Source of the DNA: Lachnospiraceae bacterium
GTDB taxonomy: Bacteria > Bacillota > Clostridia > Lachnospirales > Lachnospiraceae
Reading direction: 5' to 3'
DNA: 64,000 nucleotides
Assembly (NCBI GenBank): GCA_017518185.1
Contig: JAFWWB010000078.1
Location: 62,001-126,000 of the forward strand
Part shown: positions 8,510-31,461 of the stretch, piece after piece
How positions within the stretch are numbered: the stretch's first letter is position 1
Layout of the letters: every line of letters begins with the position of its first letter
Program-made: the position numbers and the translations under genes
Notes under the pieces: generated by a model
What the model was told of the DNA's origin: nothing
The model's database searches: none
Seen by the model: the letters and a program-made list of their open reading frames with translations, nothing else

Positions 8510-8525
8510 TTTATTTGCTCTCCTG

Positions 8526-10610: not shown

Positions 10611-10674
10611 CGTAATACCTCCATATGATATGATGATTTATTTACAGCAGCGCGTTACCCGGCGCTGAAGCATC

Positions 10675-10700
10675 AAAAAACCGCGGGCACAGACCCACGG
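10675..10700 (-). terminator. Rho-independent terminator upstream of gpmA
   Basis: Read on the minus strand, CCGTGGG pairs with CCCGCGG (one G-U pair) around a six-base loop and is followed by six T residues at 10675-10680. It would end transcription coming from the Nudix operon, or act as an attenuator ahead of gpmA. Confidence 0.75.
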
Positions 10701-10769
10701 TCAATATTACCACAAACAGGGCTGTTTAGTCAACGCGGGTTTTGGCGTCATTACCGCCTTCATGTTATG

Positions 10770-10916: not shown

Positions 10917-10919
10917 AAG

Positions 10920-11384
10920 TTATGACAATCTGTGCTCCGCAAGCCTTCCTTCTTCATCGTAAACCAGCTTCAGGGAAAAGAACGGGCGGTCTTCTTCAAG
11001 CAGCCTGAAAAAGATGCGGTCCCCCTCCCATATGGGAAGATCGTACACCTTACTTTTATCCACCCACTCGAGTTCTCCTTCATCACAGTCCCTCTCTTCT
11101 CCGGTAAAGCTTCCGGAGGTATACAGATACATATACTCCGTGATCTCACCGTACACGAAGGTGACGATACCCCTGAAACGGTGGTCCAGGAGCGTATATC
11201 CGGTCTCTTCCAGGACTTCACGGTACAGGGCATCCTCCGGGCTCTCACCCGGCTCCAGCTTTCCGCCTATTCCCAGCCACTTATCCTTATTAAGGTCGCC
11301 TTCCTTCTTTGTCCTGTGGAGCATAAGGTACTTTCCGTCACGCTCAAGATAACAGAGGCAGGTGTTCATCATCTTTTTATCCAT
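10920..11384 (-). CDS. Nudix hydrolase (MutT-like)
   Basis: A 154-residue protein with a complete Nudix box at residues 40-62 (GGKLEPGESPED, then REVLEETG), the magnesium-binding catalytic motif of the family. It probably sanitises an oxidised nucleotide such as 8-oxo-dGTP or hydrolyses another nucleoside diphosphate derivative; specificity cannot be read from the sequence. The start at 11384 follows an AAGGAG site. The gene overlaps the preceding kinase-like gene by 16 bases and is the last gene of that operon, followed directly by the inverted-repeat element. Confidence 0.88.
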   Translation of the reverse strand: MDKKMMNTCLCYLERDGKYLMLHRTKKEGDLNKDKWLGIGGKLEPGESPEDALYREVLEETGYTLLDHRFRGIVTFVYGEITEYMYLYTSGSFTGEERDCDEGELEWVDKSKVYDLPIWEGDRIFFRLLEEDRPFFSLKLVYDEEGRLAEHRLS

Positions 11385-12361: not shown

Positions 12362-13715
12362 TTCCGTCAACCACAGACTTTCCCAGCCATTTCTTCCTGT
12401 ACCAGTAATACATTACGATGAGCCCGCGTATACATTCATCCGTAGCCGTTCCGATAAAGATACCAGCAACGCCCACTCCCAGCGCCACTCCGACAATATA
12501 ACCCGTCGTGAGCCCCAGGCCCCAGTTACACAGTATACCTGCTATGAGCGGAAAGATATATGCTCCGGCAGCCTTGAGACTGCTCACGAAGGTCATGTTG
12601 AGACAGCGCCCCATTTCAACAAATATATCAACTATCATTATCATCTGAGCGAGAGCGATTATGTTGGTATTATCCGTGAAAATGTGCAGCGTGTACCGGC
12701 AGAAGACCGCGTTCAGACCTGCAAGCGCAATGGTTATGGGCATTGAGGTTCCCAAAGTCCTGAACACTCTTTTATATGCCGCATCCGTCTTCCCTGCTCC
12801 CACCAGATGTCCGGTGATTATCTGTGTGGCCATAGCGGAAGCATTGGAGAAGATCATGGCAAAGGAGATGAGGGTATTACAGTACGCCCTCGCATTGACC
12901 GCATCGTTTCCCATTGCATTGATAAAGGAGAGCAGGGTAGTCTGGTAAAGATTGTAGGTGAGATTTTCACCGGCGGAAGGAAGTCCGATCTTTACCATCT
13001 TGGAAAGCAGCCTGGAGGGAAAAGGCCTCAGATAACGCAGTGAGAACCTTCCCGTTTTTGTTGCATAGAAAAATACGATGAGGGCCGCAACTGCTATGGC
13101 TCTTGCCGCGACCGTGGATATCGCCACCCCGGCCACTCCCATGTTCAGATGCTTTAACGGGCCGTAGAGAAAGAGGTAATTTCCTATGATATTGATGACA
13201 TTGATGCAGAACGTGACCTGCATGCCTATCCTGGTGTATCCGTTGCAGCGCAGTATCTGGAGCATGACGCCCGATACCGCCATCAGGAAACCGCCGCCCC
13301 CGACGATATAGATATATGTCATCGATAAAGGACGCATCTCCGGAGAAACGTGGAGAAAGTCCATTATAAGAGGATTGACCAGACAAAAGACCACGCTGAG
13401 CACAACGCCGAACACCAGGTTCACCACAACCGCAAGGGTGTATATCATGTTCATGCGGTCATGCATTCCGGCTCCGAGATACTGCGCCACTACCACGCTG
13501 GTAGCCGTGGCAATGATATTGCAGAGTATGAGCATCATGAACATGATGGTATTTGCATTTCCCACCGCTCCGACGGCATACTCGTCATAGTGGCTGAGCA
13601 TAACGGTATCGACGTTGTTCAGCATGGTATTCAGCAGGAGTTCCAGGAACATGGGACCTGCCAGTACCAGGAGCGGGGTTTTTTCGTCTATGACGACGGT
13701 TTTGTTCTTTTCCAT
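12345..13715 (-). CDS. MATE-family multidrug/Na+ antiporter
   Basis: A 456-residue protein with about 12 hydrophobic segments in two similar halves. The opening PLLVLAGPMFLELLLNTMLN followed by NNVDTVMLSHY is the typical MATE N-terminus, with VVAQYLGAG in the following loop. MATE transporters export cationic drugs or metabolites using sodium or proton gradients at the cytoplasmic membrane. The gene starts 8 bases after the lipoprotein gene and overlaps the following kinase-like gene. No clear ribosome site is seen, so coupling to the upstream gene is likely. The substrate is unknown. Confidence 0.9.
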   Translation of the reverse strand: MEKNKTVVIDEKTPLLVLAGPMFLELLLNTMLNNVDTVMLSHYDEYAVGAVGNANTIMFMMLILCNIIATATSVVVAQYLGAGMHDRMNMIYTLAVVVNLVFGVVLSVVFCLVNPLIMDFLHVSPEMRPLSMTYIYIVGGGGFLMAVSGVMLQILRCNGYTRIGMQVTFCINVINIIGNYLFLYGPLKHLNMGVAGVAISTVAARAIAVAALIVFFYATKTGRFSLRYLRPFPSRLLSKMVKIGLPSAGENLTYNLYQTTLLSFINAMGNDAVNARAYCNTLISFAMIFSNASAMATQIITGHLVGAGKTDAAYKRVFRTLGTSMPITIALAGLNAVFCRYTLHIFTDNTNIIALAQMIMIVDIFVEMGRCLNMTFVSSLKAAGAYIFPLIAGILCNWGLGLTTGYIVGVALGVGVAGIFIGTATDECIRGLIVMYYWYRKKWLGKSVVDGNDVPD

Positions 13716-13723
13716 AAAATTTT

Positions 13724-15172
13724 TCAGGGCATGGCCGTTGCGATGAATTTATAACGGTACTGCATGTATAAGTCTGCGCTGTCATAGTCCCCGGTATAAG
13801 AAGTCACGAATTCCGCGGTATGTCCGTCGTATCCGTTCTCGTCCTCATCGACTCCGAAACGTTCGGTTGCTACTATCTCTCCGTCCTTTGTATAGACGAC
13901 AAAGAATGCGCCTTCAAGGAAGTGCTCGTAATCCGCGTCGCTCCAGTCCGCAGTCAGTCTGAATACGTTTCCTTCCTTCGTGAGCTCAGCCTCCGGGACA
14001 GGCTCTTCATATTCACAGACATTGGCAGCAAAGGGCAGCATGATAAAACGGGCTCCTGCAGGCAGGCCCACATCCCAGACCAGATCTTTGCCGGGCCCCA
14101 CCACTATCTGCCACACTTTGCCTTCAGGTTCGCTGAGGCTTCTCCAGCTCGCTTCCTCGCGGGTCTCATCGGGATTCCAGAAATACTCCCGCCCCTCCGT
14201 GTTACTTTCATAATCCTCCGGACCGCCAAGGATGATGAACTCATCATTACGGAAGGCCCTCGTCGCATCCGTTATGTTCCTGCATCTTAGCAGCGTCTTT
14301 CCGTCAGCACTTTCCACAAAACTGTATCTGATATATCCGTCAAGGCTCATGTAATCCGTCCCCGTATAATTCTGGGGGACCGCACTTTCATATGCCGAGT
14401 AAACATCATCAGAAAGCGGTTCCGCCGTCTCGCCGGTGTAAGCCCAGGCATAGAGCTCATAACGTGCGTAATCATATTCGGGAAAAATGTACGCAAGTTC
14501 ACCGTTGTCGCCGCCTGAAGAAAAGCTCCTCACCCTGTATGGATTGTCGTCGGAGTCGAAGAACAGCGCGAAATCATGGGTAACGATCCCGTGAGGCTGC
14601 CCCACCTCAAGGTCTATGCGGCGGCCGGCTCCCGTGGCCTCGTTCGCCACTTCCGTATATGTCGAAGGATCTATCTGCTCATAGATACCCTCACCGGCAC
14701 TCTCGCGGAGGTAAGCCGTTATCACCAGTTCGGAAAAATCCTTATTGCTATAGTCACCAAGCTGTGCCTGGAGCAGATCCTTCGAGCCTTTTGTAAGCAC
14801 ACGGGTGCGGCTGTCACCTGCGGATATCACATCGCCGGCCTCGTTCTTCATTTCAAAAGTAAGGTATGCCGAAGCGGGGAAAGAATGCTTATTCTCCACC
14901 TCCAGCCAGAGATCCGTATTGTCTTCACCAAACTTGACAGGCTTCACGTCAAAACTGCCTATGCACTCCACTGAGATCTTGGACAGGAACTCCTCGTTAG
15001 CCTTAACAATTTCCTCCGGTGTGTGTACTTCAACATCATACACCTCACTGCGTGAACCGCCATTTTTGTTCTTCCCGCTACTGCCCGTGTTCTCCATCCC
15101 GTCTCCGTCAAGTGCGCAGCCTGCCAGCAGTACAGCTGTTGCGATCATCAATGCGAACAGTTTTTTCTTCAT
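13724..15172 (-). CDS. Secreted lipoprotein of unknown function
   Basis: The start at 15172 is chosen because AAGGCGG lies just upstream; the longer frame to 15190 would bury that site. The 482-residue product begins with a lipoprotein signal peptide, MKKKLFALMIATAVLLAGC, with the lipobox LLAGC. The mature part starts with a glycine/asparagine-rich linker and then a mixed beta-rich region containing many tyrosines and acidic residues, with no catalytic motif that I recognise. It should be anchored on the outer face of the membrane. It heads the lipoprotein-MATE-kinase-Nudix operon. Confidence 0.75.
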   Translation of the reverse strand: MKKKLFALMIATAVLLAGCALDGDGMENTGSSGKNKNGGSRSEVYDVEVHTPEEIVKANEEFLSKISVECIGSFDVKPVKFGEDNTDLWLEVENKHSFPASAYLTFEMKNEAGDVISAGDSRTRVLTKGSKDLLQAQLGDYSNKDFSELVITAYLRESAGEGIYEQIDPSTYTEVANEATGAGRRIDLEVGQPHGIVTHDFALFFDSDDNPYRVRSFSSGGDNGELAYIFPEYDYARYELYAWAYTGETAEPLSDDVYSAYESAVPQNYTGTDYMSLDGYIRYSFVESADGKTLLRCRNITDATRAFRNDEFIILGGPEDYESNTEGREYFWNPDETREEASWRSLSEPEGKVWQIVVGPGKDLVWDVGLPAGARFIMLPFAANVCEYEEPVPEAELTKEGNVFRLTADWSDADYEHFLEGAFFVVYTKDGEIVATERFGVDEDENGYDGHTAEFVTSYTGDYDSADLYMQYRYKFIATAMP

Positions 15173-15244
15173 TCTTTTTCCGCCTTTCATAACATATTAC
15201 TTTTTATCAGGCAAAAGTTTTTAGCAAGCTTGTTTTACACTATA

Positions 15245-16123
15245 TCATATTTTATGCGGAACTTCATCTGCGTTCCCTGCATTTTTAAAACCATCTGTTT
15301 CCTTTACAATCTTTTTTTCCTGAGACTTCACCCTTCGTTCAAGTTTCTTAATGTCCTCCGCCGGCGGCAGCTCCTCCGGCTTAATTCCCCTTTCTCCCAG
15401 CATCTTGCGTACTGTACGGTTATTTTGCACGTGCTCCTCCGTGATAGGAGTTTCACCCTGTAGATCCTTTTCTTCCACATTATAATTTGTCATTTCCGTT
15501 GCCAGATTCTTTGCAGCTATCGTTAGTGTTGGAAGGAAATCTGACAATGGCCTGTTTTCTTTTACGCCCAACCGCTTCTTCATTTCCTGCGTGGTATTGC
15601 CGCCAAAAAGAGCCGTGTCCCCTTTTGAACGAATCCTGCCAAAACCTTTATCGTCCACTCCACGCTCGTATATATTCTTGGACATGCGCTTTTCAGATTC
15701 CTTCAGCCTGTCCCTGGCGTTTGCCCTCTCAATATATGCTATTCTTTCCTCTATTACTTCCTGTTTTCTCGTTTGTACAGCAAAATAGCTCTGTGCAAAA
15801 GCTATCTCTTCTTTACGTGGATCTCCATTTTGAGCAACCAGATAACAGGCGTACCGGGTAAGCATGTAATCTTTGATATTCCTGTGCGCCCCTTTTCCTG
15901 TCTCTATCATTTTCGTGACCTCACGAAAATGATCAGAAAACATATTTCCTGCTATCTCACAGGACTCAACAGCTCGATCTATTGCGTTAGAGAAATTTTC
16001 CCAACGATCATACCCTAAATGCGACATCAAATCTCTGGCAAACCAGAATTCTATGCCATCATCCGTATGCTGTGCCATATCATCGAATGACGATTTCATT
16101 TTTCCTATCTGATTCTTATCCAT
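15245..16123 (-). CDS. dinD: DinD-type DNA-damage-inducible protein (BRO/antirepressor fold)
   Basis: A 292-residue protein. The N-terminal region (IEFWFARDLMSHLGYDRWEN, then CEIAGNMFSDHF) is a Bro-N-like domain. The central TRYACYLVAQNGDPRKEEIA and the later FGRIRSKGDTALFGG are diagnostic of the DinD family. DinD of E. coli is SOS-inducible and affects RecA filaments; in gut Firmicutes the gene is mostly found on mobile or accessory DNA. It lies 113 bases behind a small HTH gene, and the intervening DNA holds conspicuous palindromes. The region is visibly AT-richer than the neighbouring operons, which suggests acquisition. Confidence 0.87.
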   Translation of the reverse strand: MDKNQIGKMKSSFDDMAQHTDDGIEFWFARDLMSHLGYDRWENFSNAIDRAVESCEIAGNMFSDHFREVTKMIETGKGAHRNIKDYMLTRYACYLVAQNGDPRKEEIAFAQSYFAVQTRKQEVIEERIAYIERANARDRLKESEKRMSKNIYERGVDDKGFGRIRSKGDTALFGGNTTQEMKKRLGVKENRPLSDFLPTLTIAAKNLATEMTNYNVEEKDLQGETPITEEHVQNNRTVRKMLGERGIKPEELPPAEDIKKLERRVKSQEKKIVKETDGFKNAGNADEVPHKI

Positions 16124-16146
16124 TCCTAAATTCTCCCTTCTAACAA

Positions 16147-16189
16147 GTCGAATTTGACCTGTTAAACGTATCGAATTCGATACGTTTAA
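16147..16189. promoter_or_regulatory. Palindromic operator candidates upstream of dinD
   Basis: A perfect 28-base palindrome (16162-16189, centre CGAATTCG) lies about 40 bases upstream of the dinD ATG. A second near-palindrome, GTCGAATTTGAC, occupies 16147-16158. A third CGAATTCG core is at 16223-16230. These do not match the GAAC-N4-GTTC LexA box of Gram-positives. They look like binding sites for a dimeric regulator, possibly the HTH protein encoded just upstream. Confidence 0.6.
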
Positions 16190-16236
16190 GAATCCGCCCT
16201 ATAATGTTCACCGGTTCCCCGCCGAATTCGATCATG

Positions 16237-16437
16237 TTACCCGTTCTTGTTCTTCTTTACCATTTCCTCATACGCCAGCTGAAATGCGATCAACCTGGGT
16301 ATATATTCCGGCGGAGTCCGTCTTCCCGCTTCCCAATCTTCCAAAGTGCGTACCGGGATTCCGGTACGTATTGAAAATTCCTTTCTGTTTTCACCGACGC
16401 TTTCACGAAGCTCTGTTATTCTCTCTGCTATATTCAT
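16237..16437 (-). CDS. Small XRE-like helix-turn-helix protein
   Basis: A 66-residue protein consisting essentially of one HTH domain: RKEFSIRTGIPVRTLEDWEA is the recognition region, followed by GRRTPPEYIPRLI. The start at 16437 is chosen because GGAGGG lies immediately upstream; an earlier ATG at 16455 would place that site inside the gene. The promoter is flanked by an 11-base inverted repeat, which suggests autoregulation. It is probably a repressor for itself and for dinD. Confidence 0.75.
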   Translation of the reverse strand: MNIAERITELRESVGENRKEFSIRTGIPVRTLEDWEAGRRTPPEYIPRLIAFQLAYEEMVKKNKNG

Positions 16438-16447
16438 ATTATTCCCT

Positions 16448-16503
16448 CCACGCATTGCGATAAAGATAATATATCATATTATTGATTTTTTTGCAATGCG
16501 TGG
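16448..16503 (-). promoter_or_regulatory. Sigma-A promoter inside an 11-base inverted repeat (small HTH gene)
   Basis: On the minus strand, TTGCAA (16491-16496) and TATATT (16468-16473) are separated by 17 bases. CCACGCATTGC at 16448-16458 and its exact complement at 16493-16503 bracket this promoter. One arm covers part of the -35 and the other lies just after the expected start site, adjacent to the ribosome binding site. This is the usual layout of an autorepressed operator. Confidence 0.65.
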
Positions 16504-16558
16504 TTAAAACTTTCTTCTGAAATGTTCTTATGCATATAGACCGAATTGTTTAAGAACT

Positions 16559-16597
16559 AAAAAACGGGCCTGAGAGCTTCTCAGACCCGCGCTTTTT
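16559..16597 (-). terminator. Terminator at the end of the WYL/M48 operon
   Basis: An 11-base stem (16565-16575 with 16579-16589, one G-U pair, three-base loop) is followed on the minus strand by six T residues (16559-16564). A five-T run on the plus side (16593-16597) could make it bidirectional. It lies about 30 bases after the stop codon of the last gene. Confidence 0.88.
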
Positions 16598-16628
16598 CTG
16601 TTTACCGGCCATGGGCCGGGATGATCCT

Positions 16629-17207
16629 TTACTTCTTTACTTTCACGGTCACGTTCTTTGTTATACCGCCCTTGAAGCCAAGGGAAAGAGTTACGCTTCC
16701 GCTATTCTTGGTGAGGTTGGAGACGGTGACTGTCGTCTTATCCTCTCCTATGGCAGCCGTCACATTCTTCATGCCCTTGATGCTGATGCTTTCAGGCGCT
16801 ATGAGATGCTGTGCTCCGCTTGCATCCTTGTAGCTGCATACAAGGTTTGCTACAGCGCTGCCATTTGTTCCGAGGCTTATCTTGGCAGCTTTAACCTTCA
16901 CGGCGGTCTTCTTTGCCTTGACGTTCTTCAGAGTTACATCGACTTCTTTCTCAATGCCGCTGATCGTAAGCTTAAAGCTCAGCTCACCGATCTTCAGGTT
17001 CTTGGCGTTAAGGTTCTTGCCGTCGTAGTCCACGATGATGTTTCCGGCATCGTTGATCACTGCATGGTAGTCCTTGCTGCTCACGCTGACATCTATGATC
17101 TCACCGCCAACTTCCTTAAGGGTGGGAACGATTACCATCTTCTGTCCGGTCACCACATCGTACTTGCTCTGGATCTTCAGGCTTGCACTATATTTTGACG
17201 CATCCAT
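16629..17207 (-). CDS. Ig-like-fold protein of unknown function, last gene of accessory operon
   Basis: A 192-residue, lysine-, valine- and threonine-rich protein that is almost entirely predicted beta strand. It resembles two tandem bacterial Ig-like repeats (for example GELSFKLTISGIEKEVDVTL and GSVTLSLGFKGGITKNVTV). It has no signal peptide or sorting signal, which is unusual for a fragment of a surface protein. A GAGG site precedes the ATG. It lies 48 bases behind the glycine-rich membrane protein gene and just before a terminator, so it is the last cistron of a six-gene unit. It could be a genuine small protein or a captured fragment. Confidence 0.6.
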   Translation of the reverse strand: MDASKYSASLKIQSKYDVVTGQKMVIVPTLKEVGGEIIDVSVSSKDYHAVINDAGNIIVDYDGKNLNAKNLKIGELSFKLTISGIEKEVDVTLKNVKAKKTAVKVKAAKISLGTNGSAVANLVCSYKDASGAQHLIAPESISIKGMKNVTAAIGEDKTTVTVSNLTKNSGSVTLSLGFKGGITKNVTVKVKK

Positions 17208-17255
17208 CGCTATTACCTCATTCGCTCACGGCAGATTATCCCCAAACGGTCTCTA

Positions 17256-18284
17256 TCAGTTTTCTTCCTTTTGTGGAATAACTCTGAGTTCTTTCAGACG
17301 ATCCTCAACAGAAACCGCTATTTTCCCAGATTCATCTGTCAACACCCCGTCATCCGTAAGCAAATGGGTATCAAGAACAGTTTTAATTGATACCGCTATG
17401 CTCGCACAAGAAGCAATTACTTTCTTCGATTCAGGCTTATACTGCTTATAATCATCCCCTTCTTCTTTAAAAATATCTTCCATTTTGTAGATCAGAGGGA
17501 GAAAATAAGCGTCCAGTCTGGCTAGCAGATTATAAAATACATATGTCCTTCTTCTGATTGCCTCGCACTGTAAAGCAGCTGTAGACAGCTGTTCCGCAAT
17601 CTGTATTGCTTCTGCTCTATTTGTGTATGCCTTTTCAAGATTCTTCTTTGCAGCCGCCCCAGCCACGAATCCAACAACCATCAGTGCCGGACCAGCCACA
17701 AGGCCACCAAGGACAGCTGTACCTCCGGCCATACCGAGTCCACCAGCTGCAAGTGAACCACCACCAAAAAATGCAAGTGTAGCATTCGTAGCGGCAGCAC
17801 CACTTAATGAAGCAATCGCTGTTCCGGTTGACGCGCAAGCAAAAGCTTGTGCCGCTCCATATGCACCGAACGCCACCAGCGCCCCACCTGCTGTTCCCGC
17901 TACAGCTCCACCTGCTATGGAGCCGGCAAAATTGACCATCGATTGCAACACCTCAAAATCCTGTTGATCAATATGGAATTTTCTCAGCTCATCCAGTCCT
18001 TCCGAATCTTTGAAATCAACGTTTTTGATCTGCGTAAAAGTGTCAAGGAATTCGACTATGCTGCTATTAAGGACATATAGCTTTTCTTCTCCAAGCTGAC
18101 TAAGAGACCGACCGCACGCAAATCTCTGTGCATTAAGCCAATCCGTAGTTTCCTGTACCATTTCATTTGCATCTTTGTTGATCTTAGAAGCGTTGTTGGC
18201 ATCTATCCCTGCCTTTATTGATTTTCCAATGCCCACGCCGCCCGTAGCAGCTGCTACTCCAATAAATAATAAAGGTACTGGCAT
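17256..18284 (-). CDS. Glycine/alanine-rich membrane-inserting protein, unknown function
   Basis: A 342-residue protein. It opens with a hydrophobic segment (LLFIGVAAATGGVGIG), then has a charged helical region. From about 115 to 210 there are several glycine-zipper-like hydrophobic helices (for example FAGSIAGGAVAGTAGGALV and GGLGMAGGTAVLGGLVAGP), and then a long helical C-terminal region. Such helices can pack tightly in membranes and are found in some pore-forming or membrane-remodelling proteins; that function is only an inference here. AAGGAGG precedes the start. It sits 14 bases after the TerB-like gene. Confidence 0.68.
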   Translation of the reverse strand: MPVPLLFIGVAAATGGVGIGKSIKAGIDANNASKINKDANEMVQETTDWLNAQRFACGRSLSQLGEEKLYVLNSSIVEFLDTFTQIKNVDFKDSEGLDELRKFHIDQQDFEVLQSMVNFAGSIAGGAVAGTAGGALVAFGAYGAAQAFACASTGTAIASLSGAAATNATLAFFGGGSLAAGGLGMAGGTAVLGGLVAGPALMVVGFVAGAAAKKNLEKAYTNRAEAIQIAEQLSTAALQCEAIRRRTYVFYNLLARLDAYFLPLIYKMEDIFKEEGDDYKQYKPESKKVIASCASIAVSIKTVLDTHLLTDDGVLTDESGKIAVSVEDRLKELRVIPQKEEN

Positions 18285-18298
18285 ATTCTTATCCTCCT

Positions 18299-19126
18299 TT
18301 AAAGTGCGATCAGATCTTTGACGCTCTCAAAGATCACATTTTTCCTGTCCTGAATCTCATTTACCATAGATTCTATCTTTAGATACGGTCTATCAGTCGT
18401 TTTAATCCATGCAAGCTCTTTTTCCAGATCCATAAGTGTCAGGATACTGCTCTCCATTTCAAGGAATTCAGCCTTGTCAATATCAAGCTTTCTTACAATA
18501 TACTTGAGTAGTTTTCTTTCCGTTTCATCATAGTTCTCATCGCTGTATGCCACGGAAAGAAGATCCCATACCAAAAGCTTTGGAGTTATAAAGGAATCCT
18601 CTGTCCTCATCGATGATATAATTGCATCTTCCACGCCATCCTGAACAACATCATAATAATCGTCTGTATCTATGACCTTATCGAGTTGTTCTTTGCATTC
18701 CTTTATTATCTGGGCCTTCTTCTGCACAAAATCAGGATCTAACTCCATGCAAATCCCATCAAATTTTTCTTCCTCACTGTGATAGATCTGTCCATCTGCT
18801 GCCATCAGATAATATATGATCTTGATTGCATTCTTTGTGGAAATACAACTCACCCGAATACCGCTGTTCTCTTCCTTCGGATTATCTTCTTTCTGCGCAG
18901 ACTCAGAATAGGTACCTTCCGTTTTATTAGGTACATCAGACGGAAGACTATCCTCCTTTCCTTCCTCCGAGGTCTTATTTGCCCCTTTCCCCGCAAAAAG
19001 ATCCGGCATTTTTATTCCTTTCGCCGCATTTGCTACCGAATCAGCCGCTCCCTTCGCTGCATTCGCCACATTTCCGGCTGCATCCTGAAGGCTACCCTTC
19101 ATCTTTTCAAAATCGAATTTTGCCAT
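18299..19126 (-). CDS. TerB-like protein with amphipathic N-terminus
   Basis: A 275-residue protein. The first 45 residues are an alanine-rich amphipathic repeat (GNVANAAKGAADSVANAAKG), followed by a polar, acidic linker. The C-terminal 180 residues resemble a TerB/DjlA-type helical domain: LMAADGQIYHSEEEKFDGI and later AYSDENYDETERKLLKYIV, the paired acidic helices of that fold. TerB domains occur in stress-response and phage-resistance contexts associated with membranes. The gene lies between the M48 protease and glycine-rich membrane protein genes with gaps under 20 bases, so the three probably work together. Confidence 0.68.
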   Translation of the reverse strand: MAKFDFEKMKGSLQDAAGNVANAAKGAADSVANAAKGIKMPDLFAGKGANKTSEEGKEDSLPSDVPNKTEGTYSESAQKEDNPKEENSGIRVSCISTKNAIKIIYYLMAADGQIYHSEEEKFDGICMELDPDFVQKKAQIIKECKEQLDKVIDTDDYYDVVQDGVEDAIISSMRTEDSFITPKLLVWDLLSVAYSDENYDETERKLLKYIVRKLDIDKAEFLEMESSILTLMDLEKELAWIKTTDRPYLKIESMVNEIQDRKNVIFESVKDLIAL

Positions 19127-19143
19127 ATCCTGTACCTCTCTTT

Positions 19144-21528
19144 TTATAATTGTAGAGCTATGTCTGAATCCATCAGTGCGTCAAACTCTTCTTGATTGGT
19201 GAATTGTGGTTCTCTACCAAGCACTCGCTGTATTACAACATTTCCTTTGATCACAAGATCTGAATTTCCTGTTGCAAGTCCCTCTTTCATGTAATCAAAT
19301 CCTTCTATAAAAGCTTCAATGTCCTGAGCCAGGTAATCCGAAACACGTTCTGTAAGCTTTGCTTTATATTCTTCCAATACCTGCATCACCTGTATAGTCT
19401 TTGCTTCTGTCAGGATCATCTTCTCATGTATCAGCTGAGCTTCTTTTCTTTCATTGGAGATTTCCTTAACAATTGCCACTGCGGATCTCCCAGCACCGAC
19501 ATAATTAAACCTTGCCGCAAACCTTCCGGCAAACAGAACCCAATTACCGCCGGATTCAAGTGCTGCATGGACAGCGGCATCCGCCGTATCTGCAACTGTG
19601 AAAGTCATACTGGAAATCGTGATCATTCTCTTTACTGTTCTGTTCCTGAATGGAATGACATTACTCCAATCTATTCCTTTCAAGCCTTTATGATCGGCAA
19701 TCTCAACACAAAGATGTGATACAAAAAATCCAAGCCTTACATATATCTCGTTAAGAGCAACCGGTATAGCCTGTTTCCCAAGAGCCTTATACATCGTAAT
19801 CTCATGCCGGAGATCCAGCTTATGATTCTCATACAGATCATCAACAAACGCTGGAAGTCCTGAATCCTTCAAAATAGGGAGCGCGGAAATCTCATATAGC
19901 AGAGATACAAATATACCAGGTATTCCCATGCCACCACCGGCAGTATTTTTTGAGCCACCCATATCACTAACAAGATGTCCAAACCAGTTGTCAGCACACT
20001 TTGCAATCTCTACAATGATCGGTGTAGAGGCAACCAGATGTGATAATCTATGAAGAGCCTTAGGAACTTCCTCTCCGCTTTCCTCTTCATATTTCTTTTC
20101 TGCCACAGCCACAAGCCAATTAAGGATCCCTGTTATCACGGCCGGAGCAAGCACCTGAATAATGTCGCTAGGAGTTGTTTCAACAAATATGAAATGCCAC
20201 TCGCCGTCCTTGTTAACAAATGACCCCAGCCTGAGGAACTGTACAACAATAGATGAAACAAGCCCAACAGGTGTGGGATGATGAGCAAGATCAGCCAAAT
20301 GATGATTCTTCGCAGAAACGCCTATTCCCGCACCTTTCCACAGATTATCCTGTGCCACCTTGAAAGCCTGTTCCAGATCACTGATAGAATCCTTTAACCT
20401 TGCGCGATCAAATCCGCGGGATTTTGCATATTCCTGAATAAAATTATTGACCTGTTGGTGTGACAGCCCAATATCCTTCCCTGTAATCTTTGTTTCACCG
20501 ATAAATATAGCATCTATGGCTCCTGCCATAATTCCGCTGAATACCGCAAACGCATAATCAACTTTATCAGCTTCACAGGTATACCTCTTAAGCTCTTTAT
20601 TGACACGTTCCAATTCAGCATCAATATTTATATCGCTATCCCCTGAGGCCTGAAGAGAAATATCTGCGGCTACGATCTCTTCTTCAACTATATCTTCAGC
20701 TTCTTTCTCTTTTTTTACGTCAATGGTATAGCTTCCATCAAGGATTCCCTGATACTGATCTGACTTTGAAAACTCATAGCATTCGTAGGCTCTTGTCGCA
20801 AGCCTCGGGTGAGTATCTCCCTGTGTCAGCATCGCTTCAATTAATTGATTCGACTTTGAATCATTAACAAATGCTTTCAGATCCAGAGCTTGTTTGATAA
20901 ACTCATCCCGATTGATATTATTGCTATATCCGTGGATTTTTAGAAGAGCATCCACCATGTTTTCTGCTTTACCATCACAGAGCACAGCGGCACGATCTGC
21001 TGAAAGCTCACTGCATCTATCCCAAAACAAGAGTGCCTTTATCAACGTAGGAGTAAGAAATCTTCTAATGCCCGGTATAGACGAAAGGGGGCTGTTTTCA
21101 ATTCCCTCAATAAGCTGCATTGCCATCGAATGATACAGATAATGCTTGCAGGCAATATGCCCACACTCGTGAGCCAGAACACTTGGAATAAGCTCATTGG
21201 GAACCTTTTTTACGAGCTCAGATGTCACAAAAATATAAGGATTCGAACTCCCGCCGGTTGCGGCATTGATTTCTTTTGACTTAACATAGTAAAGCTCTGG
21301 CACCACTATACCTAATTTCTCACATATCGGCGGTAACTGATTATAAATCTCCGGCATCTGATTCTCACTCAGTCGGATAGCCGATGACATGAACGATATT
21401 TTTGCTGCTTTTTCATCGAAATTCGTGATGTATGCTTCTCTAAGTTTGACAAACTTTGGAAAAGCGTTCAATGCAGCAAATGCTTTTCGATCCAAATCAT
21501 GTACGTACAATTCAGCGTTGTATGCCAT
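19144..21528 (-). CDS. M48 metalloprotease with large uncharacterised C-terminal region
   Basis: A 794-residue protein. Residues 1-270 are an M48-type zinc peptidase: HECGH at 120-124 gives two zinc ligands and the general base, and E174 in ELSADRAA is the expected third ligand. Unlike HtpX it has no N-terminal transmembrane helices. Residues 270-310 form an acidic linker. The remaining 480 residues contain hydrophobic helices (AFAVFSGIMAGAIDAIFIG, IIQVLAPAVITGILNWLVAV) and histidine-rich motifs (NHHLADLAHHPTPVGL, NWFGHLVSDMGG) in a domain I cannot assign to a characterised family. A GGAGGGG site precedes the start, 20 bases after the WYL regulator. The protease probably acts at or on a membrane. 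Confidence 0.8.
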   Translation of the reverse strand: MAYNAELYVHDLDRKAFAALNAFPKFVKLREAYITNFDEKAAKISFMSSAIRLSENQMPEIYNQLPPICEKLGIVVPELYYVKSKEINAATGGSSNPYIFVTSELVKKVPNELIPSVLAHECGHIACKHYLYHSMAMQLIEGIENSPLSSIPGIRRFLTPTLIKALLFWDRCSELSADRAAVLCDGKAENMVDALLKIHGYSNNINRDEFIKQALDLKAFVNDSKSNQLIEAMLTQGDTHPRLATRAYECYEFSKSDQYQGILDGSYTIDVKKEKEAEDIVEEEIVAADISLQASGDSDINIDAELERVNKELKRYTCEADKVDYAFAVFSGIMAGAIDAIFIGETKITGKDIGLSHQQVNNFIQEYAKSRGFDRARLKDSISDLEQAFKVAQDNLWKGAGIGVSAKNHHLADLAHHPTPVGLVSSIVVQFLRLGSFVNKDGEWHFIFVETTPSDIIQVLAPAVITGILNWLVAVAEKKYEEESGEEVPKALHRLSHLVASTPIIVEIAKCADNWFGHLVSDMGGSKNTAGGGMGIPGIFVSLLYEISALPILKDSGLPAFVDDLYENHKLDLRHEITMYKALGKQAIPVALNEIYVRLGFFVSHLCVEIADHKGLKGIDWSNVIPFRNRTVKRMITISSMTFTVADTADAAVHAALESGGNWVLFAGRFAARFNYVGAGRSAVAIVKEISNERKEAQLIHEKMILTEAKTIQVMQVLEEYKAKLTERVSDYLAQDIEAFIEGFDYMKEGLATGNSDLVIKGNVVIQRVLGREPQFTNQEEFDALMDSDIALQL

Positions 21529-21548
21529 ACCGTTTTCCCCTCCACTTT

Positions 21549-22505
21549 TTATTTTATCAGCTCAATATATGAGCCTTGACTTCTCAACCACATCTCTATT
21601 CCGGTTCCGAACACCTCCGCCCGTACAGTATAGATACCATCCTCTTCATCCAGGATCTCTGCCGTGGGAAGCTTATCCAAAATAGCGTCTATATCCGTAC
21701 CAGAATATTTAAAGGTGATCTTCTGGAGCTTGCCACCATACATGAACTGAACTCTCTTCCGAAACTCCCCCTCTTCAAATCTGCTGCTGTAAGGAATGTG
21801 GAATCTTTCCTCCAACACCGTCATTTTCTTTATTCTGTCGATCCGATAAATCGTAGGAAATGAATCATTTATCACATCAAATCTTTGTCTTACTGTTTCA
21901 TCATCAATAAATGCTGTCAGATAAAAATAATATTCCGAAAACATTATTGCCAACGGCTGAAGTTTTCTCTTAACCGTTTTCTTGTCCTTAGTGCGGTAAT
22001 AGGAGATTTCTATATATCTGGCCTCCCGTATCGCTCCTCCCAATTCCCACATTCTGTCAATGAATTTAGTTTTATGCCTTAACTCGATATAATGATATTC
22101 CTCGTTGCTTATAAGGTCTTTTACCAGCTTCTGGTTGCTCTTAGGTACACAGCAGGTGATCAGTTTATCAAGCATTTCCACCATTTCTGCCTTTGTAAAA
22201 GCCCTGCTATCCAACAGGATTTTGCAAAGAGCCAATACTTCGCTGTTTTGAAGCCGAACCTTGTATAGCGTTTCTAATCGATATCCCTTTGCCAATCTGT
22301 CATATACTACAGTATTAACGATTCCTGACCGTTCAGAATCAGCATCAAGGAAATTTCTTATATCATCTATATCTCTTGTGATGCTTCTTTCGTTTACCCC
22401 GTATAGAAGTGCTTCCTCGGCTTTGTTTACCACATAACCTTCCGTCAGCTTGGTATATATCTGTAGCACACGCCCTATTTTATCGTTCTTTAACTCTTCA
22501 TCCAT
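21549..22505 (-). CDS. WYL-domain transcriptional regulator
   Basis: A 318-residue protein. The N-terminal region (residues 1-75) is a winged-HTH-like segment containing the ERSITRDIDDIRNFLD motif typical of DeoR/WYL regulators. The central WYL domain includes YIEISYYRTKDKKTV, FSEYYFYLTAFID and YRIDRIKKM, and a WCX-type C-terminus follows. WYL proteins bind nucleic acid or nucleotide ligands and often control phage-defence operons (known for BrxR and CapW). AGGAGG precedes the ATG. It lies directly upstream of the M48 gene and is its likely regulator. Confidence 0.87.
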   Translation of the reverse strand: MDEELKNDKIGRVLQIYTKLTEGYVVNKAEEALLYGVNERSITRDIDDIRNFLDADSERSGIVNTVVYDRLAKGYRLETLYKVRLQNSEVLALCKILLDSRAFTKAEMVEMLDKLITCCVPKSNQKLVKDLISNEEYHYIELRHKTKFIDRMWELGGAIREARYIEISYYRTKDKKTVKRKLQPLAIMFSEYYFYLTAFIDDETVRQRFDVINDSFPTIYRIDRIKKMTVLEERFHIPYSSRFEEGEFRKRVQFMYGGKLQKITFKYSGTDIDAILDKLPTAEILDEEDGIYTVRAEVFGTGIEMWLRSQGSYIELIK

Positions 22506-22558
22506 GCTGACCTCCTATCTTGTATTCGCATTATAGCATCCGAGAAGGACACATTCTG

Positions 22559-22777
22559 TCATTTCGAATCATCTTTTTGTTTTTTTCTCCAGTTTTTATA
22601 TTCTCCGGTAGTAATACGCCCGTCTGTCGGTTTCTCCGTGTCCTTCGGAATTGCCCATTCATGTCCAAACCGTGTAGCTCCAGGTATTCTTCCTTGTGAA
22701 CACAATGTTTGAACCCTTCTCCGTGTAATACCCCATTTTTCAGCAACGTCCTTAATGGTAAGATATTCTTCAATCAT
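22559..22777 (-). CDS. Small excisionase/MerR-like HTH protein
   Basis: A 72-residue protein whose N-terminus (LTIKDVAEKWGITRRRVQTL) is a winged-helix DNA-binding domain of the excisionase/MerR type, followed by CSQGRIPGATRFG and a basic tail. Closely similar small proteins are common in Lachnospiraceae accessory regions. It is the first gene after a strong promoter and lies 53 bases before the WYL gene, so it is probably a co-regulator of the operon. The ribosome site is modest (GGTGATC). Confidence 0.75.
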   Translation of the reverse strand: MIEEYLTIKDVAEKWGITRRRVQTLCSQGRIPGATRFGHEWAIPKDTEKPTDGRITTGEYKNWRKKQKDDSK

Positions 22778-22823
22778 AGATCACCGTACTTTCCATATTC
22801 TAAGACTATACATAACTTATTCT

Positions 22824-22852
22824 ATCATATTCCAAACAACGAACGATGTCAA
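22824..22852 (-). promoter_or_regulatory. Strong sigma-A promoter of the HTH-WYL-M48 operon
   Basis: On the minus strand, a consensus TTGACA (22847-22852) and TATGAT (22824-22829) are separated by exactly 17 bases. The expected start leaves a leader of about 40 bases before the small HTH gene. No other comparable promoter is seen before 16559, so it should drive all six genes. Confidence 0.8.
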
Positions 22853-22877
22853 CAAAATGGCCGAGGATCTCCCACTC

Positions 22878-22920
22878 AAAAAAGCCCCCAGAGTACGCTC
22901 ACAGCGCACCCCAGGGGGCT
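22878..22920 (-). terminator. Terminator between the lysozyme remnant and the accessory operon
   Basis: On the minus strand a GC-rich stem (AGCCCCC with GGGGGCT at the base, further pairing inside) spans 22884-22920. It is followed by six T residues (22878-22883). It closes transcription coming from the SH3-domain remnant just before the promoter of the HTH/WYL operon. Confidence 0.9.
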
Positions 22921-22925
22921 CCCCA

Positions 22926-23322
22926 TCACTTCCTCACGGCATCCTTCAGCTCTATCCATCCAACACCGCTCTTCAATTTCCCATACCCATCCTTAACCTC
23001 AAGGATCGTAAACACTCCGTTCCCGGTCGTTTTCCCGGTCATCGGATACCCTTCTCCCGGGCCTGTCCGGATCGGCAGGTTCTTCACCTTCACCAGGAAC
23101 GGCACCTTGGCCTCTTCTGCCGCCTTCCTAGCATACTTCTCATAAAACTCCTGTCCGTAACCCGCCCGTTTCACCTTCATAGCCTCACTCTGATCCGTAG
23201 GCCGCTCATACTGTGTCAGCACCACATCAGAAGCCTCCCGCACACTCTTCGCCCCCTGCAGGGCCTTCAGCACGCCCGGATATTCCCAAGCAGCCCGGCC
23301 ACGCCATAGACATATAAAAGGA
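22926..23322 (-). pseudogene. C-terminal remnant of a cell-wall lysozyme/SH3b protein
   Basis: The open frame runs from a stop at about 23323 to 22926 without a convincing start; a GTG at 23273 is possible. The N-terminal part (GAKSVREASDVVLTQYERP and the following GYGQEFYEKYA) matches the end of a phage-tail-tip-lysozyme-type catalytic domain. The rest (NLPIRTGPGEGYPMTG, GVFTILEVKDGYGKL, GVGWIEL) is one bacterial SH3 cell-wall-binding domain. The catalytic part and signal peptide are missing, so this is most likely a decayed 3' end. A perfect terminator follows it. Confidence 0.7.
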
Positions 23323-24078
23323 CTAAGTCAAGGCGGCCTCTCCATTTCCTAAAGCCATCCGACTTAGCCCTATTATACGGTTATCACCGTTAATGATAAC
23401 ATTACCTCCGTTGCCCCAATGGCCTCCTCCTATCCCGGCACCTCCGAAATGATTAAAGGAGCCATGAACACTGGCATCAACAGTTCCTCCGTTTATCGTG
23501 ACAGTTCCGCCGCTTCCGCTGCTTCCGCCGCCTATAGCCGCGCCGTTACCGCTGCTGATGACGTTTACCGTTCCCCCGTTTATAAACACCTTTCCGCCGT
23601 TACCATGATACCCGCCTCCGATCCCGGCTGCATAATCACCGCTGTTTGCGGTTACGTTTCCACCATTTACGATCAGCGTACCGCCGGTTTCAATCGATGC
23701 GGATTCATTGTTACGGCCTCCGCCTATACCGGCAGCATAATCCCCTCCTTTTACATTCACCGTTCCTCCGTGTATGATGATGGTACCTGCCGGATTACCG
23801 TCAGAGCCCCCTATGCCCGCATTATAATTGCCTGCGGCTGCAACAAGCTTCCCCTCATCTCCTTCCTCTGCATATATCGTAAGCGTATTGTCTCCGCTTA
23901 CATTGATGCCCTTGTTCGCATTCAGGGTCGCTCCGCCGCAGAGCACGAGATTGGCAGAACCGTGAGATAATCTCAAGAGGCGCAAGGACCTTGCCTTTTC
24001 TGCTCCTGCGCGTTGAAAACCCCGTATAAAGTAAAAATGACAGTTCGCACTGCCATTTTCAGAGAAGGTATTTCTTTC
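23323..24078 (-). pseudogene. Remnant of a glycine-rich beta-helix surface protein
   Basis: The frame is open from a stop at 24079-24081 to 23323; the only starts are non-ATG (TTG at 23985). Five imperfect repeats alternate GGTVNV- or GGNVTA-type strands with AAGIGGG turns, typical of repetitive surface or adhesin proteins of gut Firmicutes. The N-terminal part (residues before SANLVLCGG) and C-terminal tail (after VIINGDN) do not fit the repeat pattern. No signal peptide, anchor or promoter is present. It appears to be an internal piece of a larger gene joined to the lysozyme remnant. Confidence 0.65.
24033..24057 (-). terminator. Terminator downstream of ftsH
   Basis: AATGGCAGT and ACTGTCATT (one G-U pair) flank a GCGA tetraloop and are followed by five T residues on the minus strand (24033-24037). 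It lies about 170 bases after the ftsH stop codon and is the first terminator after it, so it probably ends the long clpS-to-ftsH transcript. The rest of the 24082-24226 gap holds only a possible extended -10 (TGCTATAAT) without a good -35. Confidence 0.75.
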
Positions 24079-24226
24079 TTATGGGGTTATAGCAAAAAAC
24101 TATAAAATGTATTGGGGGTTACATCCTGCATTATAGCAGACCCCGTATTTTATTCCATTCTCAAAACTCACAAAATTTACAATGAATTCTCCGGATTTTT
24201 AGTAATTTTTGCAAATGTACCCGGTA

Positions 24227-26029
24227 TCAGGCGAAGAGTGCCTCGAACTCCTCCCTGCCGATGCGTTCCTTCTCGATGAGAAGGGCGGCGCAGTTATGCA
24301 TGATCTGGAGGTTTTCCTCCAGTATGCGCTTTGCCTCGGCGTGGCAGCTGTCGATTATCTTCTTCACCTCGGCGTCGATCTCGGCTGCCTTGGCCTCGCT
24401 GGTGGTCTTGGCGTGGGCCAGATCCCGGCCTATGAAGACCTCATTGTCGTCATCCTCGTAGCAGATGAGGCCCAGATCCGACATACCGAAGCGGGTCACC
24501 ATGGCCCTTGCGGTCTTTGTGGCGCTCTTGATATCGCTGGACGCTCCGGTGCACACATCCCCGAAGATGATCTCCTCGGCGACACGGCCTCCCAGGCTCA
24601 CGATTATATCCTGCTTCAGCTGTTCCTTCGAGCGGTGGTTGTCATCATTATCGGGAACGGGCATCATATAGCCTGCTGCTCCCTCTCCGGTGGGGATCAC
24701 GGATACGGTGTAGACGGAACCGGTAAGGGGCAGGAGATGCATGAGTATGGCGTGGCCCGACTCATGATAGGCCGTGATCTTCTTATCCCTTTCGCTGATC
24801 ACATGGCTCCTCTTCTCGGTTCCTATGCCCACCTTTATAAAGGAGCTCTTCACATCTTCGTAATTTATGAAGTGCCTGTCATCCTTCGCGGCCTTGATAG
24901 CTGCCTCGTTCAGCAGGTTCTCAAGATCCGCGCCGGAAAAGCCTGCGGTGGTGCGGGCAAGCTGGGTAAGATCCACATCCTCTGCAAGAGGCTTGTTCTT
25001 CGCATGCACCTTGAGTATGTCGGTGCGGCCCTGCACGTCGGGAAGGCTGACGGTGATCTTACGGTCGAAACGTCCGGGACGGAGTATGGCGGGATCCAGT
25101 ATATCCACCCTGTTGGTGGCCGCCAGCACGATTATGCCTTCATTGGCCTCGAAGCCGTCCATCTCCACCAGGAGCTGGTTCAGGGTCTGCTCCCTTTCGT
25201 CGTGGCCGCCGCCCATGCCGGCGCCCCTGCGCCTTGCCACTGCGTCGATCTCATCGATAAAGACTATGCAGGGCGCGTTCTTCTTTGCATCCTCGAAAAG
25301 GTCCCTGACGCGGCTTGCGCCCACGCCCACGAACATCTCCACGAAATCCGCACCGGAGATGGAGAAAAAGGGCACCTTTGCCTCGCCGGCTATGGCCTTG
25401 GCAAGCAGGGTCTTTCCGGTACCGGGACGTCCCTCAAGGAGTATGCCCTTGGGGATCCTGGCTCCCAGCTCCGTATACTTTCCGGGGGCTTTAAGGAAAT
25501 CCACTATCTCGTCCAGATCGTCCTTCTCCTCATGAAGGCCCGCCACATCCGCGAAGGTGGTCTTGGAATCCGTGACCATCTGGGCGCGGCTCTTGCCGAA
25601 GTTCATCATACGGCTTCCCGGGCCGCTGCCCGCCTGGTTGTTCATCATGCTGCTGTAGAAGAACACAAAGATCACCAGGACGATAAGGGACGGCAGCACG
25701 TACATAAGGAACCAGTTGTCCTCTGGCACGTCCTCTATGCGGAGGGAGATATCCTTGTCCCTCACATATTCCTCAATCTTCTTTACGTCGGTAACGTTGA
25801 AGGAGTGGCCAGCGCGGTCAGTAGTGGTGACCACTATGGTACCGGTAGGCACCTCCTTGTTCTGCTGAATGGTGACGGTCATGACCCTGCCGTCCTCCAC
25901 AGCCCGGAAGAAATCCTCCTGCGTATACTGGGATGTGCGCTTCACCGAAAAGCTGATCCATATGGCAGCCGCCATCAGTATCACTATCAGCAGAAAGACG
26001 AAGCTGTAGCTGTTCCTTTTCTTTTCCAA
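24227..26029 (-). CDS. ftsH: ATP-dependent zinc metalloprotease FtsH
   Basis: A 600-residue membrane AAA+ protease with two transmembrane segments (8-27 and about 107-126). Walker A is EGRPGTGKT (199-207), Walker [10 protein letters not shown], the pore motif is FVGVGASR, and the zinc site is HESGH (422-426). It degrades misfolded membrane proteins and short-lived regulators. Walker A has arginine where nearly all FtsH proteins have proline (G-R-P-G instead of G-P-P-G); the invariant GxxxxGKT is intact. It starts 3 bases after hpt, the common hpt-ftsH pairing, but here at the end of a glycan operon. Confidence 0.95.
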
Positions 26030-26032
26030 TGC

Positions 26033-26554
26033 TTAGTCCTCCACGACCCCTATGTAGGGGAGATTCCTGTATTTCTGGGCGTAGTCCAGGCCGTAGCCCA
26101 CTATGAACTCGTCCGGTACCTTAAAGCCCGTGTAGTCCACCTGCACCTCATGGGTGCGGCGGGAAGGCTTGTCGAGCAGTGTGCAGAGCTTAAGACTGGC
26201 AGGCTTGCGGCCCTGGAGCATCTTAAGCAGGTAGGAAAGGGTGCGGCCGCTGTCCACGATATCTTCGACCACCATCACGTCCTTGGCCTCCAGGGTCTCG
26301 TCCAGATCCTTGACTATGCGGACCACTCCGCTGGAGCTCTTCTCATCCCCGTAGCTCGAAACGCTCATAAAGTCTATGGTCACGGGTATGGTTATGCGCT
26401 TTGCCAGCTCGCAGGTGAAGAACACTCCGCCCTTCAGCACGCTTACCAGGTGCAGGCTCTTTCCCGCATAGTCCGCGCTTATCTGTTCTCCCAGCTCCCT
26501 GATCCGCCGGTTCACCTCTTCTTCGCCGATAAGTACCTTTATCTGATCCATCAT
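26033..26554 (-). CDS. hpt: Hypoxanthine phosphoribosyltransferase
   Basis: A 173-residue type I phosphoribosyltransferase with the PRPP-binding motif VMVVEDIVDSGRTL and the N-terminal VSVLKGGVFF loop. It salvages hypoxanthine and guanine to IMP and GMP. In Firmicutes hpt normally sits between tilS and ftsH; ftsH follows here, but the upstream neighbour is a glycosyltransferase-like gene 15 bases away. That gap is the largest in the whole 24-kb run. Confidence 0.94.
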   Translation of the reverse strand: MMDQIKVLIGEEEVNRRIRELGEQISADYAGKSLHLVSVLKGGVFFTCELAKRITIPVTIDFMSVSSYGDEKSSSGVVRIVKDLDETLEAKDVMVVEDIVDSGRTLSYLLKMLQGRKPASLKLCTLLDKPSRRTHEVQVDYTGFKVPDEFIVGYGLDYAQKYRNLPYIGVVED

Positions 26555-26569
26555 GATGCTCCTCCTGAT

Positions 26570-27328
26570 CTATATGTGGATACCGTATGTTGAAAGGAAT
26601 TCCTTCATTTCACCGTAATCCGAAAAATCCTTTTTCCAGCCATGGACTGCATAGGGGATGTCTCCGGTCCTGACCCTGTGCCGCAGGCTGTATTCCCCGG
26701 CAAAACGGTGGCCAAGCTCCACGGGAGCCGGCTTAAAGCCAATGCCCGAATCCCTGCCGAAGACGCCGAAGAAGATATCCTCATTCCTGAACCAGAGCTT
26801 TCTCCTTAATGAATGCTTCTTAAGGAGCTCCCTGCAGTGCTTCACGTGCCGGAGTGAAAAACCTCCGTTGCCCATCTCGATGCCGTCGCCCTTATGCTTG
26901 CAGCAGCGGATGTGGCTCCGGATGTCCCCGGTCAGGGTCCACTCCCAGATCTGCCGCGGCGGCTCCCAGGGCGCGCCCGTATAATCATACCCCTCAGAGA
27001 TGTATCTGTCCAGTTCATCGCTGTTACCCCAGATCACCGCGTCCGTCTGGGCTATCAGCACGTATTCGTAATGCTCGAAGGCGGCGTAAAGCCCGTCGGA
27101 GAGCATCAGCTTATTGTAGCCTTTTATCCCGTCAAAGAATTCCGGTGCAAAGCTCTGGTGCTTTCCCGCAGGGAAACGCTCCGAATACCAGGACATGTCC
27201 CTGCCCTCAGGCAGCACAAAGTATATATCCCTGTATCTTAGCAGCTCAAAATACCTGCTCACACAGGCTTCCTCATCCGCATCCAGGCGCGGCTTATATA
27301 CGGGTATCAGAACTGCCGCTTTCTGCAT
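26570..27328 (-). CDS. DUF5672-type glycosyltransferase-like protein
   Basis: A 252-residue protein with an N-terminal VLIPVYKPRLDADE, a middle YEYVLIAQTDAVIWG (a probable metal/nucleotide-sugar site with an aspartate) and GAPWEPP followed by GNGGFSLRHV. These are hallmarks of the DUF5672 family, considered GT-A-like glycosyltransferases. GGAG precedes the ATG. It overlaps the preceding GT4 gene by 35 bases. The sugar donor is unknown. It is the last glycan gene before hpt-ftsH. Confidence 0.78.
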   Translation of the reverse strand: MQKAAVLIPVYKPRLDADEEACVSRYFELLRYRDIYFVLPEGRDMSWYSERFPAGKHQSFAPEFFDGIKGYNKLMLSDGLYAAFEHYEYVLIAQTDAVIWGNSDELDRYISEGYDYTGAPWEPPRQIWEWTLTGDIRSHIRCCKHKGDGIEMGNGGFSLRHVKHCRELLKKHSLRRKLWFRNEDIFFGVFGRDSGIGFKPAPVELGHRFAGEYSLRHRVRTGDIPYAVHGWKKDFSDYGEMKEFLSTYGIHI

Positions 27329-31458: not shown

Positions 31459-31461
31459 ATT

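Follow-up and report, generated by a model that had tools for sequence, protein, structure and literature searches.

Among the described systems closest to the locus reported here is Bunzi, which consists of BnzA and BnzB and which the accessible text of a 2026 review places among systems of unknown mechanism (PMC12926258). TerB is listed as a domain common to Shango and Bunzi in the accessible part of PMC10952713, and the 2026 review names it in Dionysus (PMC12926258). A further relative, PDC-M09 (PDC-M09A plus PDC-M09B), is catalogued by PADLOC as a candidate system. M48 metallopeptidases also occur in a phage-protective operon, the RRDM island of E. coli (RptR, a type I restriction-modification system, DarTG, and M48), in which M48 is a separate gene beside restriction-modification; the accessible text of that source does not state the role of M48 itself and does not mention BnzB, TerB, or PDC-M09A (PMC12255303). 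Here we analyze an operon in a 64,000-nucleotide (nt) stretch of DNA from a Lachnospiraceae bacterium (the window; positions 62,001 to 126,000 of contig JAFWWB010000078.1, assembly GCA_017518185.1). Its conserved core encodes an M48-BnzB fusion protein, a TerB-domain protein, and a glycine-zipper membrane protein of the PDC-M09A family, and comparison with other loci and genomes (numbered with L and G, respectively) indicates that the operon is probably a horizontally acquired mobile defense cassette, the protease-fused variant of a modular superfamily uniting Bunzi-type BnzB with PDC-M09.

The first core protein comprises an M48 domain, a BnzB domain, and a C-terminal tail of about 92 residues (amino acids [aa] 701 to 794). 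Residues 287 to 702 match BnzB of Bunzi (PADLOC model PDLC03834, positions 125 to 487 of 504; E = 9.9e-46). What an earlier note on this DNA had called a 480-residue unknown region does lie behind the M48 domain, but it is composed of this BnzB domain and the tail. Both elements of the M48 zinc site, the HExxH motif and the downstream glutamate ligand, are present (HECGH at aa 120 to 124 and SELSAD at aa 173 to 178), and HECGH with a downstream SExxAD is intact in all 10 full-length relatives. BnzB carries the motifs HHx(6)H and HxxSD, and a comparison of 21 BnzB proteins showed no variation at D48, D107, H130, H137, H193, S196, and D197 (L136 numbering), a pattern that suggests a metal-binding or catalytic site. 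The HHx6H, HxxSD, and GxGxP motifs of BnzB recall the YdjM/DUF457 metal-dependent hydrolases. Kinship to YdjM was dropped after comparison with a profile of 11 YdjM proteins (hhalign probability, 0.3%; E = 0.24), despite an alignment that places an H and HxxxD..GI(P) in register. Searches of solved structures returned no convincing relative for BnzB, PDC-M09A, or the operon's WYL-domain regulator, and a search of the open-access literature found no paper apparently describing an M48-BnzB protein. A different M48 fusion, to a microbial PARG catalytic domain (2.2e-29), occurs in a same-genus genome (L029, 7081 to 9081).

The M48 domain resembles HtpX (NCBIfam, 4.2e-12; PDB 3cqb, 9.7e-5 with the A1 profile), sharing with HtpX/Ste24-type proteases the HExxH...E site, and TerB families are known from tellurite and membrane stress. 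Together with a TerB stress protein and a partner in the membrane, an HtpX-like protease might serve membrane-protein quality control or the envelope stress response, with no link to phage. Such a role is unlikely, in that the HtpX equivalog cut-offs are far from reached (best score, 45.8 versus 341 bits) and both BnzB and PDC-M09A belong to defense-catalogue families; the distribution of the genes, described below, argues in the same direction. Unlike HtpX/Ste24-type enzymes, the protease is fused here to BnzB and the tail.

The second core protein exceeds the gathering cut-off of the Pfam TerB family (PF05099; 34.3 versus 24.4 bits; E = 3.2e-8) and has no match among PADLOC models at E ≤ 1. 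The third matches PDC-M09A (PADLOC PDLC04407) and contains seven GxxxG motifs and hydrophobic stretches at residues 3 to 15 and 183 to 204. With Bunzi the operon has in common the BnzB domain, an adjacent TerB-domain protein, and a small co-directional arrangement, and these features, together with the listing of TerB as a Bunzi domain, could indicate a canonical Bunzi system whose BnzA has diverged. We consider this quite unlikely. The BnzA model (PDLC03833) finds nothing in the genome of the window, the TerB protein included, yet it detects BnzA adjoining BnzB in four other genomes (G224, and G819, G507, and G557, the last three with the C-terminal part only). Moreover, the partner here is PDC-M09A, and the fused M48 domain, the tail, and a core of three genes all depart from the Bunzi plan of two genes without a protease fusion. 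The BnzB model itself matches 21 of 391 genomes of the class, that of the window included, and none of 14 well-known control genomes. In six further loci (L140 to L145), BnzB adjoins a PDC-M09A-like gene, recognized weakly by BLAST in L143 to L145 and confirmed by PADLOC for the partners in L142 and L143. Relative to PDC-M09, the operon retains PDC-M09A and the tail, which is common to PDC-M09B-type proteins, but M48-BnzB replaces the PDC-M09B domain, and a TerB gene is added. The M48-BnzB protein has no PDC-M09B match in PADLOC, the tail alone being shared, and a TerB gene, more diverged, also occurs in L125 to L127 and other loci. Shango has components beyond TerB, and the partners of TerB in Shango and Dionysus differ from those found here.

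The three genes form a conserved core. Among the 15 close loci, defined by a relative at 50% or more and counting the window, M48-BnzB, TerB, and PDC-M09A occur in that order in 10 (the window, L018, L019, L021, L023, L027, L028, L120, L201, and L202), as expected from the proposal in the earlier note that a protease, a TerB protein, and a membrane protein act as one unit. Three others (L022, L024, and L121) have the C-terminal part of gene 1 followed by TerB and the zipper gene; in L024 and L121, the contig starts partway through gene 1, and everything after that point is kept. L129 is a broken copy with its pieces in order, and overall the core order is preserved in the visible part of 14 of the 15 loci. 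Across 45 pairs from 10 loci, pairwise identities of M48-BnzB correlate with those of PDC-M09A (r = 0.74) and more weakly with those of TerB (r = 0.59).

The tail connects these proteins to a wider set. It was found in 16 of the 920 open reading frames (ORFs) in the loci collected, the best match beyond these reaching E = 0.004, and it ends the M48-BnzB proteins, BnzB proteins without M48 (L123 and L124), and proteins matching PDC-M09B (L125 and L126). Tail proteins resembling the last group occur in L127, L128, L203, L205 to L208, L211, and L213 and, more weakly, in L209, L210, L212, and L214; L125 to L127 lack the invariant-residue site of BnzB and are not BnzB proteins. The part before the tail is thus swappable, being M48-BnzB, BnzB alone, or PDC-M09B. 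PDC-M09A or M48 had served to find many of the initial loci, which made adjacency in them partly a product of how they were collected. Samples of 392 and 398 genomes, overlapping the earlier samples, were therefore searched using only the tail; with the window and three genomes already used set aside, this yielded 16 loci. PDC-M09A was adjacent, or separated only by TerB, in 12 of the 13 new loci at E ≤ 1e-10 and in 13 of the 16 at all strengths; in the weaker loci, it accompanied the tail in L214 and not in L215 or L216. TerB was found in 11 of the 13 strong loci, in 5 of them only weakly (E = 2e-8 to 5e-5), and none of 22 control loci had any of the six modelled parts. The common tail and the swappable front parts indicate that BnzB and the candidate PDC-M09 share one chassis, of which the window holds a protease-armed version.

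Several other arrangements of these parts were encountered. L153 encodes BnzB and PDC-M09A within a single protein of 784 aa, and in L122, TerB and PDC-M09A follow an 1,124-aa protein that has a kinase domain and no tail. In L204, the frame bearing the tail is short, at about 100 residues. L206 holds tandem systems, its single cluster comprising a pair of tail proteins, a pair of PDC-M09A genes, TerB, and WYL. In L132 and L133, a related glycine-zipper gene lies beside PDC-M40B proteins and a WYL gene, suggesting a further head on this chassis.

The core has a patchy distribution. Of 34 other genomes of the genus, two have full-length M48-BnzB relatives (G001, 68% identity; G029, 62%), in both cases on contigs other than that of ftsH; such relatives also occur in metagenome-assembled genomes titled Acetatifactor, Solobacterium, Erysipelothrix, and Oscillospiraceae (59 to 68%). 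In the tree, the window and the two same-genus copies fall on separate branches, interspersed with copies from Erysipelotrichaceae and Oscillospiraceae, although support is partly weak. In the window, 14.4 kb separate ftsH from a gene for a 424-aa protein. Among the 10 same-genus genomes fetched from those with an ftsH match, this interval is 1.2 to 3.0 kb and lacks the operon in 6, and 2 of these 6, G001 and G029, carry the unit elsewhere (ftsH of G029 was hidden by the ORF caller, and its position comes from a separate search). The remaining four comprise G007, in which only the next gene (W7340) was found; G010, in which the contig ends; and G018 and G030, with no visible gene for the 424-aa protein. 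Sites without the operon in 6 of 10 genomes, combined with copies on other contigs in G001 and G029, indicate that the unit moves, and this patchiness is not that of a housekeeping function. The ends of the insertion are approximate, given that further genes occupy this interval in most of the six and that the 14.4 kb of the window hold more than the operon. The MATE side proved uninformative, as the orthologue was in other surroundings in the 12 genomes fetched.

BnzB-domain relatives also reside on plasmids of Lactiplantibacillus and Lactococcus, covering at most 49% of the query among the matches listed. Plasmid carriage and a modular, mobile effector that pairs a swappable N-terminal part with a membrane-like partner would be expected of a selfish toxin module or a competition system, acting in mobile-element stabilization or kin killing instead of phage defense. 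We judge this very unlikely, as no fourth conserved gene that might provide immunity or an antitoxin was found in the relatives, and the first protein is homologous to a Bunzi component.

The defense role proposed in the earlier note is likely on account of homology to BnzB and PDC-M09A. At E ≤ 1e-15, PADLOC families number 68 for 148 proteins flanking 17 core loci and 42 for a control of 145 proteins; the control was a random draw of 148 of the 278 proteins at MATE and ftsH loci, less three long ones. These are numbers of families and not per-protein counts, and the core flanks are not clearly richer. The 25 families listed for each set are mostly kinase- and ATPase-type models, and the ftsH genes themselves probably account for the seven IetA matches in the control. 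The single clear case of a flanking defense gene is an Orf5/HEC-06 protein beside the M48 gene in L020.

Other observations likewise weigh against a protease-armed defense cassette. No PADLOC model matched eight of 10 large proteins in the flanks at E ≤ 1e-8, and no relative of M48-BnzB or PDC-M09A emerged from pattern-based scanning of viral contigs; a tblastn search of phage records found none of PDC-M09A. The protection from phage ascribed to BnzB is reported from the work on Bunzi, and the genome of the window, as noted, has no BnzA match. The protease is not universal: L022 keeps BnzB, TerB, and PDC-M09A and has no M48 part despite available upstream sequence. Nor does PDC-M09A always accompany the tail, being missing from L212 (a strong tail match) and L215 (a weak one), and L216, the weakest match and one with stops, has no system part. 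Finally, L020 ends 0.7 kb past gene 1, and its second ORF has no TerB match. This ORF (L020, 7188 to 7892) has an amphipathic N-terminus like those of the TerB proteins, and the second gene may be swappable too.

The earlier note had proposed a six-gene system, and three of the six genes fall outside the core. When the neighborhoods of relatives were compared, the core genes stayed together, whereas the genes for the small helix-turn-helix (HTH) protein, the WYL regulator, and the "Ig-like" protein scattered. The small HTH protein, probably a regulator, recurs in one relative only (L027) and was rejected as a conserved part. WYL regulators commonly control phage defense operons, and here the WYL gene is an optional yet recurrent partner of the wider family. 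It lies upstream in 3 of 10 complete loci (the window, L021, and L023; the upstream sequence of L019 is too short to tell), and homologues occur in 9 of the 38 loci L120 to L157, in 5 of the 16 loci from the tail search, and in none of the 22 control loci. Identity of the WYL protein reaches 71% in L136, whose BnzB is only 26% identical, and a 71% identical WYL piece in L032 lies near an M48 protein of a different type (42% across the M48 part) that lacks BnzB. In a check of kinship to BrxR and CapW, the WYL domain was present, but phmmer returned no PDB match at E ≤ 0.01.

Pfam returned no match for the Ig-like ORF at E ≤ 0.1, and the ORF has no homologue among the compared core and control loci. 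Matches to its domain occur in 9 of 144 genomes searched, that of the window included, all of one genus, and 22 of the 36 places besides that of the window are in open frames of 877 to 4,044 residues. In all six places read, the domain ends the frame and is preceded by repeat-like sequence that stays open for 497 residues or more. Across 562 bp, the DNA of the ORF shares 79% identity with the 3′ terminus of a long frame from the window's own genome. The ORF is therefore a detached C-terminal domain of a large genus-specific protein family and was rejected as a part of the system. The repeat proteins would be surface proteins, and the many stand-alone Ig-like ends in this genus are possibly recombination debris.

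The six co-directional ORFs are spaced 14 to 53 nt apart, the promoter and both terminators that the earlier note had described are present (Table 1), and the HTH, WYL, M48, and TerB assignments exceed the curated Pfam cut-offs. The promoter's −10 element is about 46 nt from the HTH start codon. The promoter ranks best of 16 promoter-like sites in positions 14000 to 26000, a number at chance level (17.9 expected from shuffles), and the two terminators have the longest stems among 13 found (9.4 ± 3.2 expected). No palindromic operator was found, only two pairs of short direct repeats. The repeat CATATTC(T/C)AA occurs at 22794 to 22803 and 22826 to 22835, 32 nt apart, with one copy overlapping the −10 element, and may mark regulator sites or be due to chance. 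There was no Rfam match in 12000 to 26600 and no tRNA in the window.

Table 1. Features of the operon and of the adjoining unit, in window coordinates
Feature	Position	Strand	Evidence
Small HTH_17/excisionase-like DNA-binding protein, 72 aa	22559..22777	-	Pfam HTH_17, 5.9e-9
WYL-domain regulator, 318 aa	21549..22505	-	Pfam WYL, 3.2e-8
Core gene 1: M48 metalloprotease, BnzB domain, and C-terminal tail	19144..21528	-	Pfam M48, 5.9e-15; PADLOC BnzB
C-terminal tail module of core gene 1	19144..19428	-	Common to PDC-M09B and BnzB-only partners
Core gene 2: TerB-domain protein, 275 aa, variable N-terminus	18299..19126	-	Pfam TerB, 34.3 bits
Core gene 3: glycine-zipper membrane protein, PDC-M09A family, 342 aa	17256..18284	-	PDC-M09A, 3.9e-29
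"Ig-like" ORF, outside the system	16629..17207	-	79% DNA identity to 3′ terminus of a long frame in the window's genome
Promoter TTGACA-17-TATGAT	22824..22852	-	11 of 12 consensus matches
Upstream terminator, 15-pair stem and T tail	22885..22917	-	Stem scan
Downstream terminator, 12-pair stem	16564..16590	-	Stem scan
Neighboring unit: XRE-like HTH, 72 aa, outside the operon, same AT-rich block	16237..16455	-	Sub-threshold HTH_31; phrog_8, 2.5e-8
Neighboring unit: DinD/PDC-S13 candidate defense gene, outside the operon	15245..16123	-	PDC-S13, 2.2e-121; NCBIfam DinD, 371.9 bits (cut-off, 242)

The operon sits within the AT-richest stretch of the window. Its G+C fraction (0.431 for 16559 to 22920) is lower than those of both flanks (0.527 for 5001 to 15200 and 0.545 for 22921 to 33000), as had been noted before, and the five lowest of 1,153 sliding positions of operon length (0.428) start at 16251 to 16501, 58 to 308 bases to the left of 16559. 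The AT-rich block extends beyond the operon to about 15.2 kb, covering a second small unit of an HTH gene and a DinD/PDC-S13 gene. A DinD relative (34%) also lies beside the BnzB/PDC-M09A pair of L140. On the other side of the operon, two short ORFs resemble gene remnants: a lysozyme/SH3 end at 22926 to 23273 (Phage_lysozyme2, 6e-5, below the cut-off) and a piece of a glycine-rich repeat protein at 23323 to 23985.

How such a cassette might work can be sketched tentatively, and its detailed mechanism is more doubtful than its identity. The WYL and HTH proteins would hold expression low until infection, as in BrxR/CapW (accessible text of PMC12255303). The glycine-zipper protein would be the membrane-acting part, TerB would anchor or sense at the membrane, and the first protein would dock through its tail to either of them, its N-terminal part determining the action. 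In the M48 version, infection would release the complex, and the protease, with the conserved His/Asp BnzB domain, would cut or unlock a membrane target, probably its own zipper partner; the ensuing membrane damage would halt phage production by abortive infection. By this speculative account, Bunzi and PDC-M09 would be one modular immune family with a fixed TerB/glycine-zipper membrane chassis, a docking tail, and an exchangeable head, in which a zinc-protease head arms its own membrane-disrupting partner upon infection, a protease/pore pair on a plan unlike that of gasdermins.

"Undescribed," the term applied to the operon in the earlier note, is too strong because its parts belong to described or catalogued families. 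What the operon suggests is a modular family of membrane-linked defenses, with the tail rule and the swappable heads tying Bunzi to the candidate PDC-M09. The suggested division into a constant part (TerB, glycine zipper, and tail) and a variable head would make the mechanism approachable through comparison of heads and removal of active sites, and the tail offers a sequence handle for finding further, unlisted heads.

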